Shown: positions 58,244-64,000 of the stretch, piece after piece
Layout of the letters: each line of letters starts with the position of its first letter
Numbering within the stretch: position 1 is the first letter of the stretch
Source of the DNA: Butyrivibrio sp. Su6
GTDB lineage: Bacteria; Bacillota; Clostridia; Lachnospirales; Lachnospiraceae
Length of the DNA: 64,000 nt
Assembly: GCF_900108105.1 (NCBI RefSeq)
Contig: NZ_FNUR01000014.1
Span: forward strand, 1 to 64,000
Direction of reading: 5' to 3'
The notes under the pieces: generated by a model
Seen by the model: the letters and a program-made list of their open reading frames with translations, nothing else
Databases searched by the model: none
What the model was told of the DNA's origin: nothing
Made by a program: the position numbers and the translations under genes

Positions 58244-58798
58244 ATGATCACATTATTTCACGCAAGTTACAATGTTATAGAAAAGCCTGATATACATCAT
58301 GGCAGGAAAAATGCTGATTTTGGACAAGGATTTTATACTTCAGATAAATATGATTTTGCAGGGCGTTGGGTCACGCCAAGGCCGGACGCTGACATTATAA
58401 TTAATAAATATGAGCTTGATGAAAAAAATCTGAAGATCAAGCGCTTTGACCGGGATAAAGAATGGTTTGAATATATTTTCAACAATAGACGGAGCATGCC
58501 GGATTACTTAAATGAGTATGATTTGATCATCGGACCTATTGCTAATGATACGATACACGATACACTCGGAGTTATCACCAGCGGCTTTTTGTCTGATGAG
58601 GAGGCTATGAAGCTGCTCATGGTAGGAAACTGCTATGAGCAGATAGTATTAAAGAGTGAAAATGCGGCAAAGGCGCTTAAATTCATATCCTACGAGATAT
58701 TAACGGATGAAAAGATAGCCGGGTTCAGGAAAATGGCAGATGATGATAATGAAAAGTACATGTCTGAATTTGCTAAAACTATGGAGAGTTTTGAATAA
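58244..58798 (+). CDS. DUF3990 family protein, ADP-ribosyltransferase-like toxin candidate
   Basis: The protein is about 184 residues. The N-terminal LFHASYNVIEKPDI, followed by NADFGQGFYTSDKYDFAGRW, is the DUF3990 pattern, which resembles the NAD site of ADP-ribosyltransferases (H near residue 5, then G-x-G-F-Y-T). A conserved-looking DYDLIIGPIANDTIHD block follows near residue 100. DUF3990 proteins often sit beside a small DUF3791 partner, likely antitoxin; none was found here. AAAGAGG precedes the ATG at 58244. A strong hairpin follows. The toxin role is inference. Confidence 0.7.
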   Translation: MITLFHASYNVIEKPDIHHGRKNADFGQGFYTSDKYDFAGRWVTPRPDADIIINKYELDEKNLKIKRFDRDKEWFEYIFNNRRSMPDYLNEYDLIIGPIANDTIHDTLGVITSGFLSDEEAMKLLMVGNCYEQIVLKSENAAKALKFISYEILTDEKIAGFRKMADDDNEKYMSEFAKTMESFE

Positions 58799-58800
58799 TT

Positions 58801-58849
58801 AGAGAGGACACTAGTCCACTTATGCTTAGGTGGAATAGATGTCCTCTCT
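58801..58849 (+). terminator. Terminator after the DUF3990 gene
   Basis: AGAGAGGACA pairs with TGTCCTCTCT and TCCAC with GTGGA inside it, followed by TTATAATTT. Confidence 0.7.
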
Positions 58850-58957
58850 TTATAATTTCTACCAAAAACAGAACCTGATAATTGTAGACTTCTCTGAAAA
58901 TAAGCGTATTTTCAGCAAAATATTGATTTTTAAATCAGAGATTGTTACCATTTAAAC

Positions 58958-58967
58958 GAACACGTTC
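58958..58967. promoter_or_regulatory. Operator candidate GAACACGTTC upstream of the TetR gene
   Basis: GAAC and GTTC flank AC in the context ACGAACACGTTCAT, a form typical of TetR-family operators. It lies between a possible -35 (TTGTTA) and an A/T-rich -10 region, 71 bp before the tetR start, so self-repression of the six-gene operon is likely. Confidence 0.55.
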
Positions 58968-58981
58968 ATAAAATACTGAAG

Positions 58982-58995
58982 GCTGTAGCTACAGC
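58982..58995. promoter_or_regulatory. Perfect 14-bp palindrome GCTGTAGCTACAGC
   Basis: It lies in the leader of the TetR operon, 15 bp after the operator candidate. It could be a second binding site or a short hairpin in the 5' UTR. Confidence 0.45.
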
Positions 58996-59037
58996 AGCGT
59001 ACAGCTATGGTTATTTTGATTTTTTGGAAAGATAGAT

Positions 59038-59562
59038 ATGCCCAAAATTATAGAAAACATCAAGGAACAAATCATAGAAGAAGCAAAAAAACAGCTTTTT
59101 GAGAATGGTTATTCAAAGACGACTATCCGTTCTGTTGCAGCAGCCTGCGGAATTGGCGTTGGGACTATGTATAATTATTTCTCGTCAAAGGATATGCTGA
59201 TATCTTCATTCATGTTGGAGGACTGGAAGAGCTGCACTGCGCAGATGAAAAAGCTGGACACTTCAGAAGAACTTATATTTCTTGAGGGAATTCATGATTA
59301 TCTCAAGGTCTTTATAAACAAATACAGCTTTCTTTTTAAAGATAAGGAGGCTGCATCAGTTTATTCCGCAGTCTTTGCTGAGAGACACGCACAGCTACGA
59401 GGAGTTCTTGCGAATATAATACTGCCTGTGTGTATTGATAAAAGCTATGATGAACCTGATTTTATGGCCAGTCACATTGCGGAGTCTATACTTTTTTGGA
59501 CACTTGAGGATGTTCCATTTGAGAAACAGGCGGGAATCTTTAGAATTCTTTTAAAGATGTGA
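59038..59562 (+). CDS. TetR/AcrR-family regulator, first gene of the six-gene operon
   Basis: The 174-residue protein has the TetR helix-turn-helix at residues about 8-54: IIEEAKKQLFENGYSKTTIRSVAAACGI and GVGTMYNYFSSKDML. The C-terminal ligand domain is unassigned. The protein is slightly shorter than average. Gaps to the following genes (36, 24, 37, 24, 8 bp) and the absence of internal terminators suggest it is cotranscribed with and controls the five genes after it. An operator candidate at 58958-58967 supports autoregulation. Confidence 0.88.
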   Translation: MPKIIENIKEQIIEEAKKQLFENGYSKTTIRSVAAACGIGVGTMYNYFSSKDMLISSFMLEDWKSCTAQMKKLDTSEELIFLEGIHDYLKVFINKYSFLFKDKEAASVYSAVFAERHAQLRGVLANIILPVCIDKSYDEPDFMASHIAESILFWTLEDVPFEKQAGIFRILLKM

Positions 59563-59598
59563 AATATCAAAATGAATCACAAAAGCGGAGGGTATGAA

Positions 59599-60528
59599 AT
59601 GAGTAGCTTTGAAAACTTGCGAATCGTAGACAATTTTTATCAGACATCACTGTTTTTTCCGATGCCTACCGTTCTTATCAGCACTTTGTGCGAAGACGGC
59701 TCAACTAATCTGGGACCCTATTCCCTGATCCAGCCATATTATGTTGCTGGTAAGGATTATTACGCAATGCTTCTTAATTGTCGTAATTCATCTAACACAG
59801 CACAGAATATCCTGCGCACAGGAAAATGTGCGATCAACTTTATCGATGACAATCCCAAAAACTTTCATGAGGCAGTGAAGCTTTCATGGCCTGGCGATAA
59901 GCCATCCGAAAAGATGCCAAAATGTAATTTCAAATTGGAAAAGAGCCTTATTCAGGAGGAAAATCCTGAGGATCTGCGCCCTATGGTCATGACAGACGCC
60001 ATAGAAGTAATCGAGTGTACATGGATGAGAGAGCTTGATGGAGCTTCAAACGATGCACCGGGTCAGCTTGAAGGCTATGAAGGTCCATATCATGATTTCA
60101 ATGGCATAACCAGTAAGTTTGGTGCGCACTTTATCTTAAGAATTGACAAAATTCTTATGAAAAAGAAATATCGTGATGCCATAATAAACGGCGTGACAGC
60201 AAGAGATTTTCCACCACTTCCTGTAGATTACGGTTACAGGGATTCAAAGAACTTCTGGTTCCACAGAAAGAGAAGAATGAGAGCAGAGCTTTTGCAGGTT
60301 CGCGAAGCGTCACTTGCTTCTGTTCGTTATGCTGCAGAGAGAGCTGATGACAAGATAAAGTTTACTGATGATGCACTTAAGTGCCTATTGGGTGTTCCAA
60401 GAGTCTTTTTACCTGCTGCTCTTAAGGGCTGTGTTGAGTGGGCAAGAGAGAATAACGTTGAACTTGTAACTGAGGAGCACATGAAGATAATCAACGATAA
60501 GCGTGCCCAGGAAAAGAAGAAAAAATAA
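59599..60528 (+). CDS. Flavin reductase-like split-barrel protein with C-terminal PCP_red-like domain
   Basis: The protein is about 309 residues. Residues 1-190 look like an FMN-binding split barrel of the flavin reductase/DIM6-NTAB type (PMPTVLISTLCEDGSTNLGPYS, NCRNSSNTAQNILRTGKCAINF). Residues about 255-309 (FTDDALKCLLGVP, WARENNVELVTEE) follow the pattern of the PCP_red domain found at the end of light-independent protochlorophyllide reductase subunit B and in some other redox proteins. No cysteines bind Fe-S. The ATG at 59599 has GGAGG upstream. Electron transfer to a partner enzyme of the operon is plausible. Confidence 0.72.
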   Translation: MSSFENLRIVDNFYQTSLFFPMPTVLISTLCEDGSTNLGPYSLIQPYYVAGKDYYAMLLNCRNSSNTAQNILRTGKCAINFIDDNPKNFHEAVKLSWPGDKPSEKMPKCNFKLEKSLIQEENPEDLRPMVMTDAIEVIECTWMRELDGASNDAPGQLEGYEGPYHDFNGITSKFGAHFILRIDKILMKKKYRDAIINGVTARDFPPLPVDYGYRDSKNFWFHRKRRMRAELLQVREASLASVRYAAERADDKIKFTDDALKCLLGVPRVFLPAALKGCVEWARENNVELVTEEHMKIINDKRAQEKKKK

Positions 60529-60552
60529 TTCATGACATGGAGGAGATAAAAA

Positions 60553-61401
60553 ATGAAGGTTGTACTTGCAGGCGCTTATGGAAATCTTGGCGCAGATATT
60601 TTTAAAGCTCTTTTAAAGGAAGGACATGAAGTAGTTGCCCTTGATATGATGCAGAGAGATATTGAACTTAATGGCAAATACTCTTTTACCAAGGTAGATG
60701 TGACAAAACCTGAAACACTTGCTGGAACATGCGATGGCGCAGACGCAGTCATTACAACTGTAGGTCTTACAAAGGGATCTGCCACAATTTCCAACTATGA
60801 TATCGATTATCAGGGAAACCTCAACATATTAAATGAAGCCAAAAAAGCGGGAGTTAAACATTTTACCTATATTTCAGTAATAAGAGCAGATCAGGCTCCT
60901 GAAAAAGTACCAATGGTACATGCAAAATATCTTTTTGAGCAGAAGCTGAAAGAAAGCGGCCTCTCTTATGTTATCCACAGACCAACAGGCTATTTTTATG
61001 ACATTGTAAAAGTATTCAGACCAATGGTCGAAAAGGGCGCCGTTACCCTTCTTGGAAATACACCTGTCAGCTGCAACGTTATTTCAACTGAAGATTTTGC
61101 TGATTTCATCGTAAAGCACATGCTTGATGACAACAAGATTTATGATGTAGGCGGAAAAGAGACTTACACATATGAAGAAATTGCAACAATGTGCTTTAAG
61201 GCAGCAGGAAAAGAACCGGTAATAAAGAAGGCTCCGACTTGGCTCTTTGATGTACTTGCATTTGTGAATAAGCTCAAAAAGAACGGAAAAGAAGCAATCA
61301 TCCGCTTCTCAAAGTTTACTTTATCTCAGGATATGGTAGGTTCAACCAAATATGGAGATATGAGTTTTGCTGAATATATAAAAGACAACTTTGCCGTCTG
61401 A
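60553..61401 (+). CDS. NAD(P)-binding SDR, NmrA/DVR-like
   Basis: The 282-residue atypical SDR begins with a nucleotide-binding loop VVLAGAYGNLGADI. It has the KVDVTKPETL acidic stretch, VITTVGLTKG, HFTYISVIRAD and VIHRPTGYFYDIVKVF. The arrangement fits NmrA/complex-I-39-kDa-like proteins, a group that includes 8-vinyl reductases (BciA/DVR) of chlorophyll synthesis. Whether it is catalytic or only a redox sensor cannot be decided from sequence. TGGAGGAG precedes the ATG. Confidence 0.8.
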   Translation: MKVVLAGAYGNLGADIFKALLKEGHEVVALDMMQRDIELNGKYSFTKVDVTKPETLAGTCDGADAVITTVGLTKGSATISNYDIDYQGNLNILNEAKKAGVKHFTYISVIRADQAPEKVPMVHAKYLFEQKLKESGLSYVIHRPTGYFYDIVKVFRPMVEKGAVTLLGNTPVSCNVISTEDFADFIVKHMLDDNKIYDVGGKETYTYEEIATMCFKAAGKEPVIKKAPTWLFDVLAFVNKLKKNGKEAIIRFSKFTLSQDMVGSTKYGDMSFAEYIKDNFAV

Positions 61402-61438
61402 TAAAAGTGGCAGGTATTTTCACTTGGAGGATTAATTT

Positions 61439-62245
61439 ATGTATTGGAATTCATTACTTATAATCTGCCTTGTCTGCGCTGTTCTCAGTGCAGTGGGCTT
61501 CTATAAATATGTGTACTTTCTGTCTATTGGATATGGATTTGCAATTGCCGGTGGCGGCATAACTATTTTAATTATGTCTTTGAAGTATGGCTGGTCAGAA
61601 GGAGTTGTTGTTCTTGCTGTTTTACAGGCTGTTTTGTTTCTTGCCTATGGCGTGCGTTTGTCCGGATTTCTTTTGATAAGAGAGATAAAAAATGCGGCAT
61701 ATCGCAAGACCTTAAAGGAAGCAACAGGAAATGACAAGAAAATACCTGTGTTTGTAAGCATTTCAATTTGGGTATTCGTTGCTATTCTTTATACAGCACA
61801 GGTGAGCCCAATGCTCTTTAGATATGCAAACGGATCAAAGGATGTGATCGTTCCTGTAATTGGCATGCTGATATCTGTCTTTGGTCTTGGACTCGAGTCA
61901 CTTGCAGATAAACAGAAATCAGAGCAGAAAAAGGAAAGACCTGATATGGTGGCAACAAAGGGACTTTACAAAATTGTCAGATGTCCGAATTATCTTGGGG
62001 AGATTATTTTCTGGACAGGGGTATTTGTTGCAGGAATCACAACTTATCAGGGAATTGGACAGTGGCTTATGGCGATAATAGCATATGTCTGCATTGTTTA
62101 TATCATGTTCAACGGAGCTCAGCGCCTTGAAAAGCGCCAGATGGCACGTTATGGCAATGATGCTGCGTATAATGATTATGCAAATAAGACACCGATCATA
62201 CTTCCTTTTATTCCTATTTATCATCTGAATAAAAAAACGAGTTGA
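61439..62245 (+). CDS. DUF1295 (steroid 5-alpha-reductase-like) membrane protein
   Basis: The 268-residue membrane protein has about six membrane segments. Its C-terminal half has the DUF1295 pattern: LADKQKSEQKKERPDMVATKGLYKIVRCPNYLGEIIFWTGVF and the ending QRLEKRQMARYGNDAAYNDYANKTPIILPFIP. The family is related to steroid 5-alpha reductases and isoprenylcysteine methyltransferases and carries out NADPH-dependent reductions or methylation. The actual substrate is unknown. A CTTGGAGGA ribosome site precedes the ATG. Confidence 0.87.
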   Translation: MYWNSLLIICLVCAVLSAVGFYKYVYFLSIGYGFAIAGGGITILIMSLKYGWSEGVVVLAVLQAVLFLAYGVRLSGFLLIREIKNAAYRKTLKEATGNDKKIPVFVSISIWVFVAILYTAQVSPMLFRYANGSKDVIVPVIGMLISVFGLGLESLADKQKSEQKKERPDMVATKGLYKIVRCPNYLGEIIFWTGVFVAGITTYQGIGQWLMAIIAYVCIVYIMFNGAQRLEKRQMARYGNDAAYNDYANKTPIILPFIPIYHLNKKTS

Positions 62246-62269
62246 TAAGTGACATCTTGGGGGTTACAT

Positions 62270-62893
62270 ATGAAAAATTATTCGATCACAATGGGGATCA
62301 TAGATTTTATACCGGTTATATTTTTTGCTATTGCAGCAATAATGTTACAAAGGAATCTGTATAACAAAATGAGCAAAGGCGCCTTCGCACTTTTTGCTGT
62401 GGGCACAATTGATATAATCTGTGCAGGAGTTGCCAAAGCACTCTATAAGCTTCTTTATGCCGCAGGAATCTGTGATTTCAAGCCTTTGAATGATATATTC
62501 TTTCCGATGCAGTCCATTGGATTTCTTTTGGCAGGAATAGGCATACTTGCAATGCTTTTCCACAGACAGGGCAAAAACGCTGCGCTATCCGTTGCGCCAC
62601 CTGTGTTTACAGGCACAGCAATATTTGTAAGCTGCATGTGCATTGGACTTGCTATGATATATATTGCTTTGTGCATAATTGCAGTAAAGCTTAAAAAGCC
62701 ATTTCTCATAGCGGTTTTTGTTATATCTTTTCTCTGCTCACTTGCAATGGGATATCTTTCATCCAAAGATTTTACTCAGAGCTACATGAACTGGATTGCC
62801 CAGATAATTAACATTGTTGGACAGGGACTTCTATTCTATGGCGTGATAGTCATGAATAAGGCCGGAATTGCTGACCTTGTACTTGGAAAGTGA
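62270..62893 (+). CDS. Six-helix membrane protein of unknown function
   Basis: The protein is about 207 residues with around six hydrophobic segments (IIDFIPVIFFAIAAIML, FALFAVGTIDIICAGVA, IGFLLAGIGILAML, FVSCMCIGLAMIYIALC, FLIAVFVISFLCSLAMG, IINIVGQGLLFYGVIV). No family is recognised. The ATG at 62270 follows TGGGGGT. It lies inside the TetR-led operon, 24 bp after the DUF1295 gene, so it may serve the same pathway, for example as a membrane partner or heme-binding anchor (inference). Confidence 0.68.
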   Translation: MKNYSITMGIIDFIPVIFFAIAAIMLQRNLYNKMSKGAFALFAVGTIDIICAGVAKALYKLLYAAGICDFKPLNDIFFPMQSIGFLLAGIGILAMLFHRQGKNAALSVAPPVFTGTAIFVSCMCIGLAMIYIALCIIAVKLKKPFLIAVFVISFLCSLAMGYLSSKDFTQSYMNWIAQIINIVGQGLLFYGVIVMNKAGIADLVLGK

Positions 62894-62901
62894 GGCTGGC
62901 T

Positions 62902-63558
62902 ATGACTTGTCTGGATGAAATGATTAAGATTATAAAAACTCATTATGAGTTGGAACCTGTAAATACTTCAGAGTATGATGGATTAAAGATCAATGGCATG
63001 CGCTTTGATATAAAGGCCTATGAAGCTAAAAATCTTGGGCATATATCTGTAATGACGGCTAAAGGCTTATTTGGTCTCATGAAAATGGATACCATAATAT
63101 TTACGCCATCTGAGGCTGATCTGCCTCTTTTATCCTATGACAGGATAAAGGTCATGGGGAATGATATTTTGATTACAGAGCTTTTTGATACTGTGGCTGA
63201 CACTGATACATTAGACAATCTGGACAGAATTGAAGCATTAGTATCAAAGTATGACTATCTTCCTTACAGGGATCCGGGAAAGCATTGGTATGATGACATC
63301 AAGCTTTCAGGTTGTATGTCCTTTAAGGGAAAAAAGAATTTGTCTTCAACATTTAATGCACTTGCAAAAGAGTATCTGGAGACATATTTGAGTCTGCCTC
63401 ATGTTGAGGTCAGTGATGTTGCACTAAAAAAGCAAAAGACTCTGAACTACGTAAATGACCTTATTGAAAACGGTGGTCCTTCAACCAACGTATTTATCAA
63501 GGCCATAGGAAAAGAGAAGACGAAAAAGCTCTTTTACCAGGTCCTGTTTGGAGTGTAA
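62902..63558 (+). CDS. Protein resembling ferredoxin-dependent bilin reductases (remote)
   Basis: The soluble protein is about 218 residues, the length of small bilin reductases. Two blocks match the bilin reductase pattern by eye: FTPSEADLPLLSYDRIKV near residues 64-81 (compare F-P-x-x-x-x-D-L-P-x-x-x-x-D-x-V in PcyA-type enzymes) and the C-terminal stretch of residues about 185-218 containing YVNDLIE, IKAIGKEKTKK and YQVLFGV (compare the Y-x-x-Q-x-N-D...FG-x-x-W/A...VLFD ending). An upstream histidine of PcyA (in F-P-H) is not kept. The ATG at 62902 has GTGAGG ahead. It is the last gene of the operon. Remote homology, so the function is unproved. Confidence 0.5.
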   Translation: MTCLDEMIKIIKTHYELEPVNTSEYDGLKINGMRFDIKAYEAKNLGHISVMTAKGLFGLMKMDTIIFTPSEADLPLLSYDRIKVMGNDILITELFDTVADTDTLDNLDRIEALVSKYDYLPYRDPGKHWYDDIKLSGCMSFKGKKNLSSTFNALAKEYLETYLSLPHVEVSDVALKKQKTLNYVNDLIENGGPSTNVFIKAIGKEKTKKLFYQVLFGV

Positions 63559-63561
63559 CTA

Positions 63562-63595
63562 AAAAATGCTTACGCCGATGGCGTAAGCATTTTTA
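63562..63595. terminator. Bidirectional terminator between the operon and the BASS gene
   Basis: AAATGCTTACGCC and GGCGTAAGCATTT form a 13-bp stem with loop GAT, flanked by A and T runs. It serves both convergent units. The same stem occurs at 53447-53475. Confidence 0.85.
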
Positions 63596-63613
63596 ATAAA
63601 GTTCAATTTAGGC

Positions 63614-64000
63614 TCACTGAGCCTTTTCTAAAATGGGTTCTTCCTCAGTGTCATTTTTTTGGGAATCATCTACAAGCTTCTGGTAGATATTTGCAAGGAT
63701 TGCACCTGAAATATTGTGCCATACTGAGAAAATTGCGCCTGGGACTGTTGCCATTGCAAGGTCTGGGAAAGCTGTTCCTGCAAGAGATGTTGCAAGTCCT
63801 GAGTTCTGCATTCCAATCTCGATAGAAAGAGCTTTTTTCTTGGATACAGGAAGCTTTAAAAGCTTTCCGAGAAGGTATCCGCATGCATATCCTAAAAGGT
63901 TGTGAAGGATAACTACTACGAATACAACAGCACCTGTCTCGAGGATTCTTGCTGAGTTGTGTGATACAACTGCTGCTACGATAAGTGTGATAGCTGTAAC
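63614..64000 (-). CDS. BASS-family (bile acid:sodium symporter type) transporter, C-terminal part
   Basis: Only the last 129 codons are visible; the N-terminal part lies beyond base 64000. The membrane segments AVVFVVVILHNLLGYACGYLL and TVPGAIFSVWHNISGAIL and the conserved KALSIEIGMQNSGLATSLA stretch are typical of BASS (ASBT-like) transporters, which import organic anions with sodium. The substrate is not known; bacterial members move bile acids, pantothenate or other carboxylates. It is convergent with the TetR-led operon and ends in an acidic cytoplasmic tail. Confidence 0.85.
   Translation of the reverse strand, partial: VTAITLIVAAVVSHNSARILETGAVVFVVVILHNLLGYACGYLLGKLLKLPVSKKKALSIEIGMQNSGLATSLAGTAFPDLAMATVPGAIFSVWHNISGAILANIYQKLVDDSQKNDTEEEPILEKAQ

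Follow-up and report, generated by a model that had tools for sequence, protein, structure and literature searches.

A TetR-led operon of Butyrivibrio that encodes a protein of predicted bilin-reductase fold, and the compounds it may reduce

The question raised by this locus is which compound is reduced by the products of a six-gene operon of the rumen anaerobe Butyrivibrio sp. Su6, located at positions 59038-63558 of the first 64,000 nucleotides of contig NZ_FNUR01000014.1 (this whole stretch is called the window below). The operon opens with a gene for a TetR-family regulator (A) and ends with a gene (F) whose product, as a predicted model, has the fold of ferredoxin-dependent bilin reductases (FDBRs) over its whole chain. 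A first-pass annotation, made from the letters of the window, had proposed the reduction of a tetrapyrrole, with reduction of an enone or steroid-like molecule as the competing hypothesis. Our answer is tentative: with a probability somewhat short of even, this is a TetR-controlled hydrogenation operon in which F reduces a scavenged bilin-type tetrapyrrole. It is F that points to a tetrapyrrole, and the pathway itself is what we infer. The features of the locus are the following.

59038..59562, + strand: gene A, TetR-family regulator (TetR_N, 49.2 bits, Pfam cut-off 24)
59599..60528, + strand: gene B, split-barrel flavin-reductase-like protein with a helical C-terminal extension, possibly PCP_red (Flavin_Reduct below cut-off)
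60553..61401, + strand: gene C, atypical short-chain dehydrogenase/reductase (SDR), NAD_binding_10/NmrA (74 bits, cut-off 27.2)
61439..62245, + strand: gene D, DUF1295 membrane reductase, steroid 5-alpha-reductase superfamily (Pfam cut-offs passed)
62270..62893, + strand: gene E, membrane protein without a family, about six transmembrane helices (hydropathy and model)
62902..63558, + strand: gene F, protein of predicted ferredoxin-dependent bilin reductase fold (model)
63562..63594, no strand: symmetrical terminator hairpin between F and the convergent gene (folding)
58956..58969, no strand: TetR-type operator, a form of TGAAC-N2-GTTCA (conserved before TetR)

F and the genes that accompany it

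The fold search with the predicted model of F gave the bilin reductase/RCCR fold and not an unrelated one, in line with the bilin-reductase-like label of the first-pass annotation. The catalytic Asp105 of PcyA corresponds to Asp80 in F, which is invariant in 14 of 14 F proteins. Presence of F is closely tied to that of E: in a genus set of 61 genomes (G000-G060), 10 have F, 11 have E and 10 have the two together (hypergeometric 1.2e-10, uncorrected for relatedness), and in the 35 genus genomes that are at least 90% complete the corresponding numbers are 9, 9 and 9. B is found in 11 of the 61 and together with F in 9 (hypergeometric 3.1e-8, likewise uncorrected for relatedness). These counts leave out weak E-like matches (G025, G042, G043), second E-like matches (G039, G060), short B matches in G040 and a second B match in G019. 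Because F sits at differing places, simple linkage is unlikely to be the cause of the co-occurrence. In the order-wide scan 11 of 392 genomes have F and 9 of 392 a near-full-length B, after 4 of 13 B rows (4 of 5 in another B search) had been dropped as short matches. F and B share six genomes order-wide, provided that both 392-genome draws are identical. On these numbers F is less closely linked to B than to E. As for the sequence sets, neither the F of P18 nor duplicate records entered A1, L052 and L058 were kept out of A2, and A3 and A4 are without L015, L052 and L058; L051 ends inside B.

Genes A to F are contiguous and in the same order in four Butyrivibrio genomes, namely that of the window, AE2015, P18 (with E shortened) and the metagenome-assembled genome (MAG) RGIG9232, and also in the Oscillospiraceae MAG SIG492 (L029) at 43 to 79% identity. 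Two genomes of another family also have the gene set in a cluster, with the genes arranged differently. This conservation of gene order is well beyond chance, and the co-occurrence of the set in other Butyrivibrio and in another family is what the neighbourhood check proposed in the first-pass annotation was looking for. The order is A-C-D-B-E-F in G088, where a further short stretch resembling F separates D from B, and A-B-E-C-D in G169, with F about 0.6 kb further. Five genomes (G014, G019, G039, G057, G060) keep A to E together and carry F at another place; G177 has A to E and is not among the F-bearing genomes listed in the order-wide scan. C-D-E-F without A and B forms the locus of G168 and G206, and Pseudobutyrivibrio ACV-2, whose downstream gene is 90 to 91% identical to that of these two, carries an intact F and only a stub of C; neither D nor E was found on the stretch examined. 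E and F are apart in G055, whose DUF1295 is a more distant one, and D-E-F is apparently broken in G161 (a MAG). In G008 (L052 7903-8917) B is 98% identical and the C behind it comprises only 22 residues, and no further operon gene was found on L052. The shortened E of P18 (L015 9104-9319) lacks about 130 internal residues while its neighbours are full length, and in G019 (L053 9078-9815) a gene for a hydrophobic protein without a Pfam family directly follows E. The neighbours of lone F genes, scanned at three of eight loci, are of many kinds (UxaC, LacI, GH9, ROK, tRNA methyltransferase, MatE, response regulator, MCP).

Control of the operon and a related operon without B and F

All six open reading frames lie on the + strand and are separated by gaps of 8 to 37 bases; the single unit described earlier is confirmed. 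The best start of B is the ATG at 59599, with GGAGGG ahead of it. The single terminator of the earlier description is a strong one, a 15-pair hairpin at 63562-63594; the minimum free energy (MFE) of 63550-63605 is -21.3 kcal/mol (z -5.7) and was matched by none of 200 shuffles. The source genome has 3.70 Mb in 23 contigs, and Butyrivibrio sp. AE2015 and B. proteoclasticus P18 are its close named relatives.

Upstream of TetR lies the palindrome ACGAACACGTTCAT at 58956-58969. A TGAAC-N2-GTTCA site with at most one arm mismatch was found within 130 bases before TetR at 14 of 14 operon loci, including the window; in the control, 26 of 7000 base-shuffled upstream stretches were equally good. The autoregulatory-type operator of the first-pass annotation is thus a conserved element. 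The exact 14-mer ATGAACRYGTTCAT has one copy, at the operon, in three of 15 genomes searched (G014, G019, G057) and is absent from the other 12, that of the window included. With one mismatch there are two further sites in the 64-kb window, so that the operator is not unique at that stringency. A second palindrome, at 58982-58995, was found in no other sequence than the window and L014, which is its closest relative. Two operator-like palindromes, not one, lie upstream of TetR in G060 and G039 (L056, L057). The anatomy of operator and TetR is that of a repressor acting on its own operon, which would hold the genes repressed until an inducer binds, and the inducer is probably the substrate.

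A related operon consists of genes for TetR, an SDR, a DUF1295 protein and a short E-like membrane protein (E'). It is present at L108 3078-5916 and L109 2688-5650, in the Butyrivibrio genomes G042 and G025, in both of which B and F were unmatched genome-wide. An exact TGAAC-N2-GTTCA stands before TetR in both cases. The common operator suggests that the two operon types may respond to a similar inducer. In G043 (L110 3867-5179) a DUF1295 gene and an E-like gene are arranged head to head in opposite directions, which is a further sign that both go together.

The surroundings of the operon vary. The convergent gene beyond the terminator is of BASS/PanS type, and the neighbourhood of a BASS transporter noted earlier holds for the window and two close relatives and not elsewhere: only G050 (L024), G012 (L025) and the genome of the window have it next to F, and it was rejected as a member of the operon (the L016 stretch is too short to judge). 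Immediately upstream of the operon the window has a DUF3990 gene (58244-58798, 139.9 bits). G050 also has one upstream of the operon, P18 has a fragment of it, and in G041 it lies at a distance of about 3 kb. No known RNA reached gathering scores in 58700-64000.

Families of the proteins B to E

The first-pass annotation likened three of the five structural proteins to chlorophyll or bilin enzymes. That likeness stands for F, by its predicted fold, and is not established for B (PCP_red) and C (DVR). For the tail of B, PCP_red (PF08369) scored 13.2 bits in the genome scan and 15.1 alone and did not reach its cut-off of 32.5; the tail is the best place for PCP_red in the window's genome and three of eight B tails matched at E <= 10, while the permissive scan was positive in 9 of 14 control genomes, one of them above cut-off. 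Histone-fold matches of the B tail in the PDB have E 0.2 or worse and were treated as chance. The DVR-like label of C is unspecific because C matches NAD_binding_10/NmrA generally. It passes the Pfam cut-offs of NAD_binding_10, NmrA, Epimerase and 3Beta_HSD (40.7 bits, cut-off 22), no NCBIfam model is over cut-off among the matches listed (25 of 29; the DVR sequence was not compared directly), and the proteins of solved structure closest to C in sequence are one resembling an epimerase, SimC7 and triphenylmethane reductase.

Flavin_Reduct (PF01613) scored 19.5 and 19.7 bits with the window copy of B, under the cut-off of 27, and is matched by 14 of 14 aligned B orthologues at E <= 5 (best 9.7e-8). 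B is the slowest-changing of the genes compared. In three genus pairs the protein is 92 to 98% identical at 51 to 54% identity of third codon positions, and in all five pairs the ranges are 81 to 98% and 36 to 54%, respectively. Recent transfer is unlikely to be the cause of this conservation because third codon positions have diverged and the protein has not.

D and E are hydrophobic membrane proteins by hydropathy. The resemblance of D to steroid 5-alpha reductase was confirmed: D passes DUF1295 (98.1 bits, cut-off 20.4) and Steroid_dh PF02544 (29.3 bits, cut-off 22.6), and its profile matches the solved bacterial steroid 5-alpha-reductase 7c83 over 27 residues (E 3.4e-4). It is the only DUF1295 match in the window's genome. 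E has no Pfam family, and its model (pLDDT 79) gave no PDB fold match at E <= 0.001.

What the operon may reduce

In the reading that we prefer, the core of TetR, C, D and E would perform NAD(P)H-dependent reduction of a lipophilic conjugated compound at the membrane, and the split-barrel flavoprotein B and the FDBR-fold protein F would have been added to this core in Butyrivibrio and a few relatives. F would most likely bind an open-chain (bilin-type) tetrapyrrole and reduce a double bond in it, with reduced ferredoxin giving the electrons, Asp80 the proton, and Asp63 standing where PcyA has His88. The reduction may serve detoxification or an electron sink. Repression, inducer, ferredoxin, flavin, bilin substrate and division of labour are all parts that we infer. 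The predicted fold of F argues for a linear tetrapyrrole and the family of D for an enone; it is a speculation that a tetrapyrrole end ring, with its carbonyl-conjugated double bond, could suit D and F alike. ALAD is needed for any tetrapyrrole made from scratch, and it was unmatched in 12 of 14 F-bearing genomes, including that of the window, and present in two (G168, G206). The substrate would therefore be scavenged from feed or host. Among eight genomes without F, ALAD is present in one (G008), so that its lack is common in the genus, is not special to carriers of F, and informs only on where the substrate comes from. Ferredoxin-reducing enzymes are present in butyrivibrios (PMC4478896).

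A number of results weigh against the preferred reading. His88 and Glu76 of PcyA are not conserved, F having Asp63 and Met51 there. The score of F with Fe_bilin_red (PF05996) is 20.9 bits, below the cut-off of 31; only 5 of 14 F proteins match this family at E <= 1, and its cut-off was passed in none of 295 genomes, with Synechococcus elongatus alone matching among 14 control genomes. Sequence searches of the PDB with F found no FDBR, and hhalign of F against PcyA gave a probability of 3.3% despite E 0.013. The same fold has been put to other use in the PcyA-fold motor subunit. F is often away from the operon, and at eight of eight lone-F loci no operator-like site (at most one mismatch) was found within 250 bases upstream; control of lone F by the operon's operator was therefore rejected. 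B is present without F in G008, and F without B in G055 and G168. The absence of ALAD is weakened for G041 and G169, which are 88% and 79% complete. Finally, as the core operon also stands under an exact operator where B and F are missing, core and inducer need not involve a tetrapyrrole, and an operator common to both operon types counts against a tetrapyrrole as the sole inducer.

This core operon also favours a different substrate, an enone, sterol or isoprenoid-type lipid, an explanation that we consider a real possibility and on balance doubtful. C would act on a hydroxyl or carbonyl group and D on the adjacent C=C bond, B would give reduced flavin or a second reduction, E would hold or move the lipid, and F would keep its fold and either act on this lipid too or serve as a scaffold. 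The Pfam and 7c83 matches of D, the 3Beta_HSD score of C and the hydrophobic nature of D and E fit such a lipid. It leaves unexplained, however, why an FDBR-fold protein with an invariant catalytic Asp was recruited and co-occurs with the operon, and the BASS transporter is no constant neighbour. A further proposal, which we regard as improbable, is that the operon acts in fatty-acid biohydrogenation, either in its final step from vaccenate to stearate or in quinol chemistry feeding that step. The operon is indeed present in B. proteoclasticus P18; B. proteoclasticus is described as the only bacterium known to reach stearic acid (PMC2914790), and PMC4478896 calls its clade the stearate group. 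This proposal is weakened because C-D-E-F also occurs in Pseudobutyrivibrio-like genomes, a group reported to stop at vaccenate (PMC4478896), and F has nothing suggestive of a fatty acid.

It might also be that F is an unrelated passenger with its own function wherever it is placed, and that B to E are one system. F at other loci without the operator in several genomes, the B without F in G008 and the intact F beside a C stub in ACV-2 would agree with this. We nevertheless give it a low probability: F is accompanied by E in all ten F-bearing genomes of the genus set and directly follows E in the window, P18, AE2015, RGIG9232, SIG492, G088, G168 and G206.

Among known systems, the FDBRs (PcyA, PebA, PebB, HY2; PF05996), including the pre-PcyA proteins of heterotrophic bacteria (PMC10151467), are closest to F. 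F differs from them by Asp for His88 and Met for Glu76, by its score under the Pfam cut-off and by its occurrence mostly in ALAD-less genomes; the pre-PcyA lineages are likewise without His88 and Glu76 (PMC10151467). Globins are found in pre-PcyA clusters (PMC10151467), whereas F is linked to an SDR, DUF1295 and E and none of its scanned neighbours is a globin. F scores higher with known bilin reductases than with RCCR, which acts downstream of an oxygen-dependent enzyme (PMC10151467). The bilR, bilQ, bilS and bilV genes (PMC10769871; preprint PMC13252198) reduce linear tetrapyrroles in anaerobic gut bacteria and have a regulator beside the enzyme. Their likeness to the present operon is a functional analogy only: BilR and BilV belong to the Old Yellow Enzymes and the regulator gene bilQ is of the MarR family (PMC10769871, PMC13252198), and there is no Old Yellow Enzyme or MarR among the six operon proteins, the rest of the genome not having been searched for BilR. 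D, by its cut-offs a DUF1295/steroid 5-alpha-reductase family member, differs from that family in its pairing with E. Within the library searched we found no paper on such an operon or on an anaerobic bilin reductase of Lachnospiraceae, and no report of PCP_red outside photosynthesis. The words Firmicutes, Clostridi and Bacillota are absent from the main text of PMC10151467.

We return to the hydrogenation of a scavenged tetrapyrrole. Every known enzyme structurally related to PcyA was said in 2023 to depend ultimately on oxygen (PMC10151467), and the enzyme for urobilinogen to stercobilinogen was stated in 2024 to be unknown (PMC10769871). In its most specific form, which we think unlikely, F would be an anaerobic branch of the bilin reductases that hydrogenates scavenged linear tetrapyrroles in obligate anaerobes mostly without tetrapyrrole synthesis: in the rumen phyllobilins of senescent leaves, or in the hindgut urobilinogen, which would yield stercobilinogen. 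D would reduce the carbonyl-conjugated end-ring double bond at the membrane. If the preferred reading is true, a conserved F in mostly ALAD-less anaerobes would represent an anaerobic use of the PcyA fold, and the operon would supply candidate genes for the reduction of dietary or host tetrapyrroles by rumen and gut microbes.

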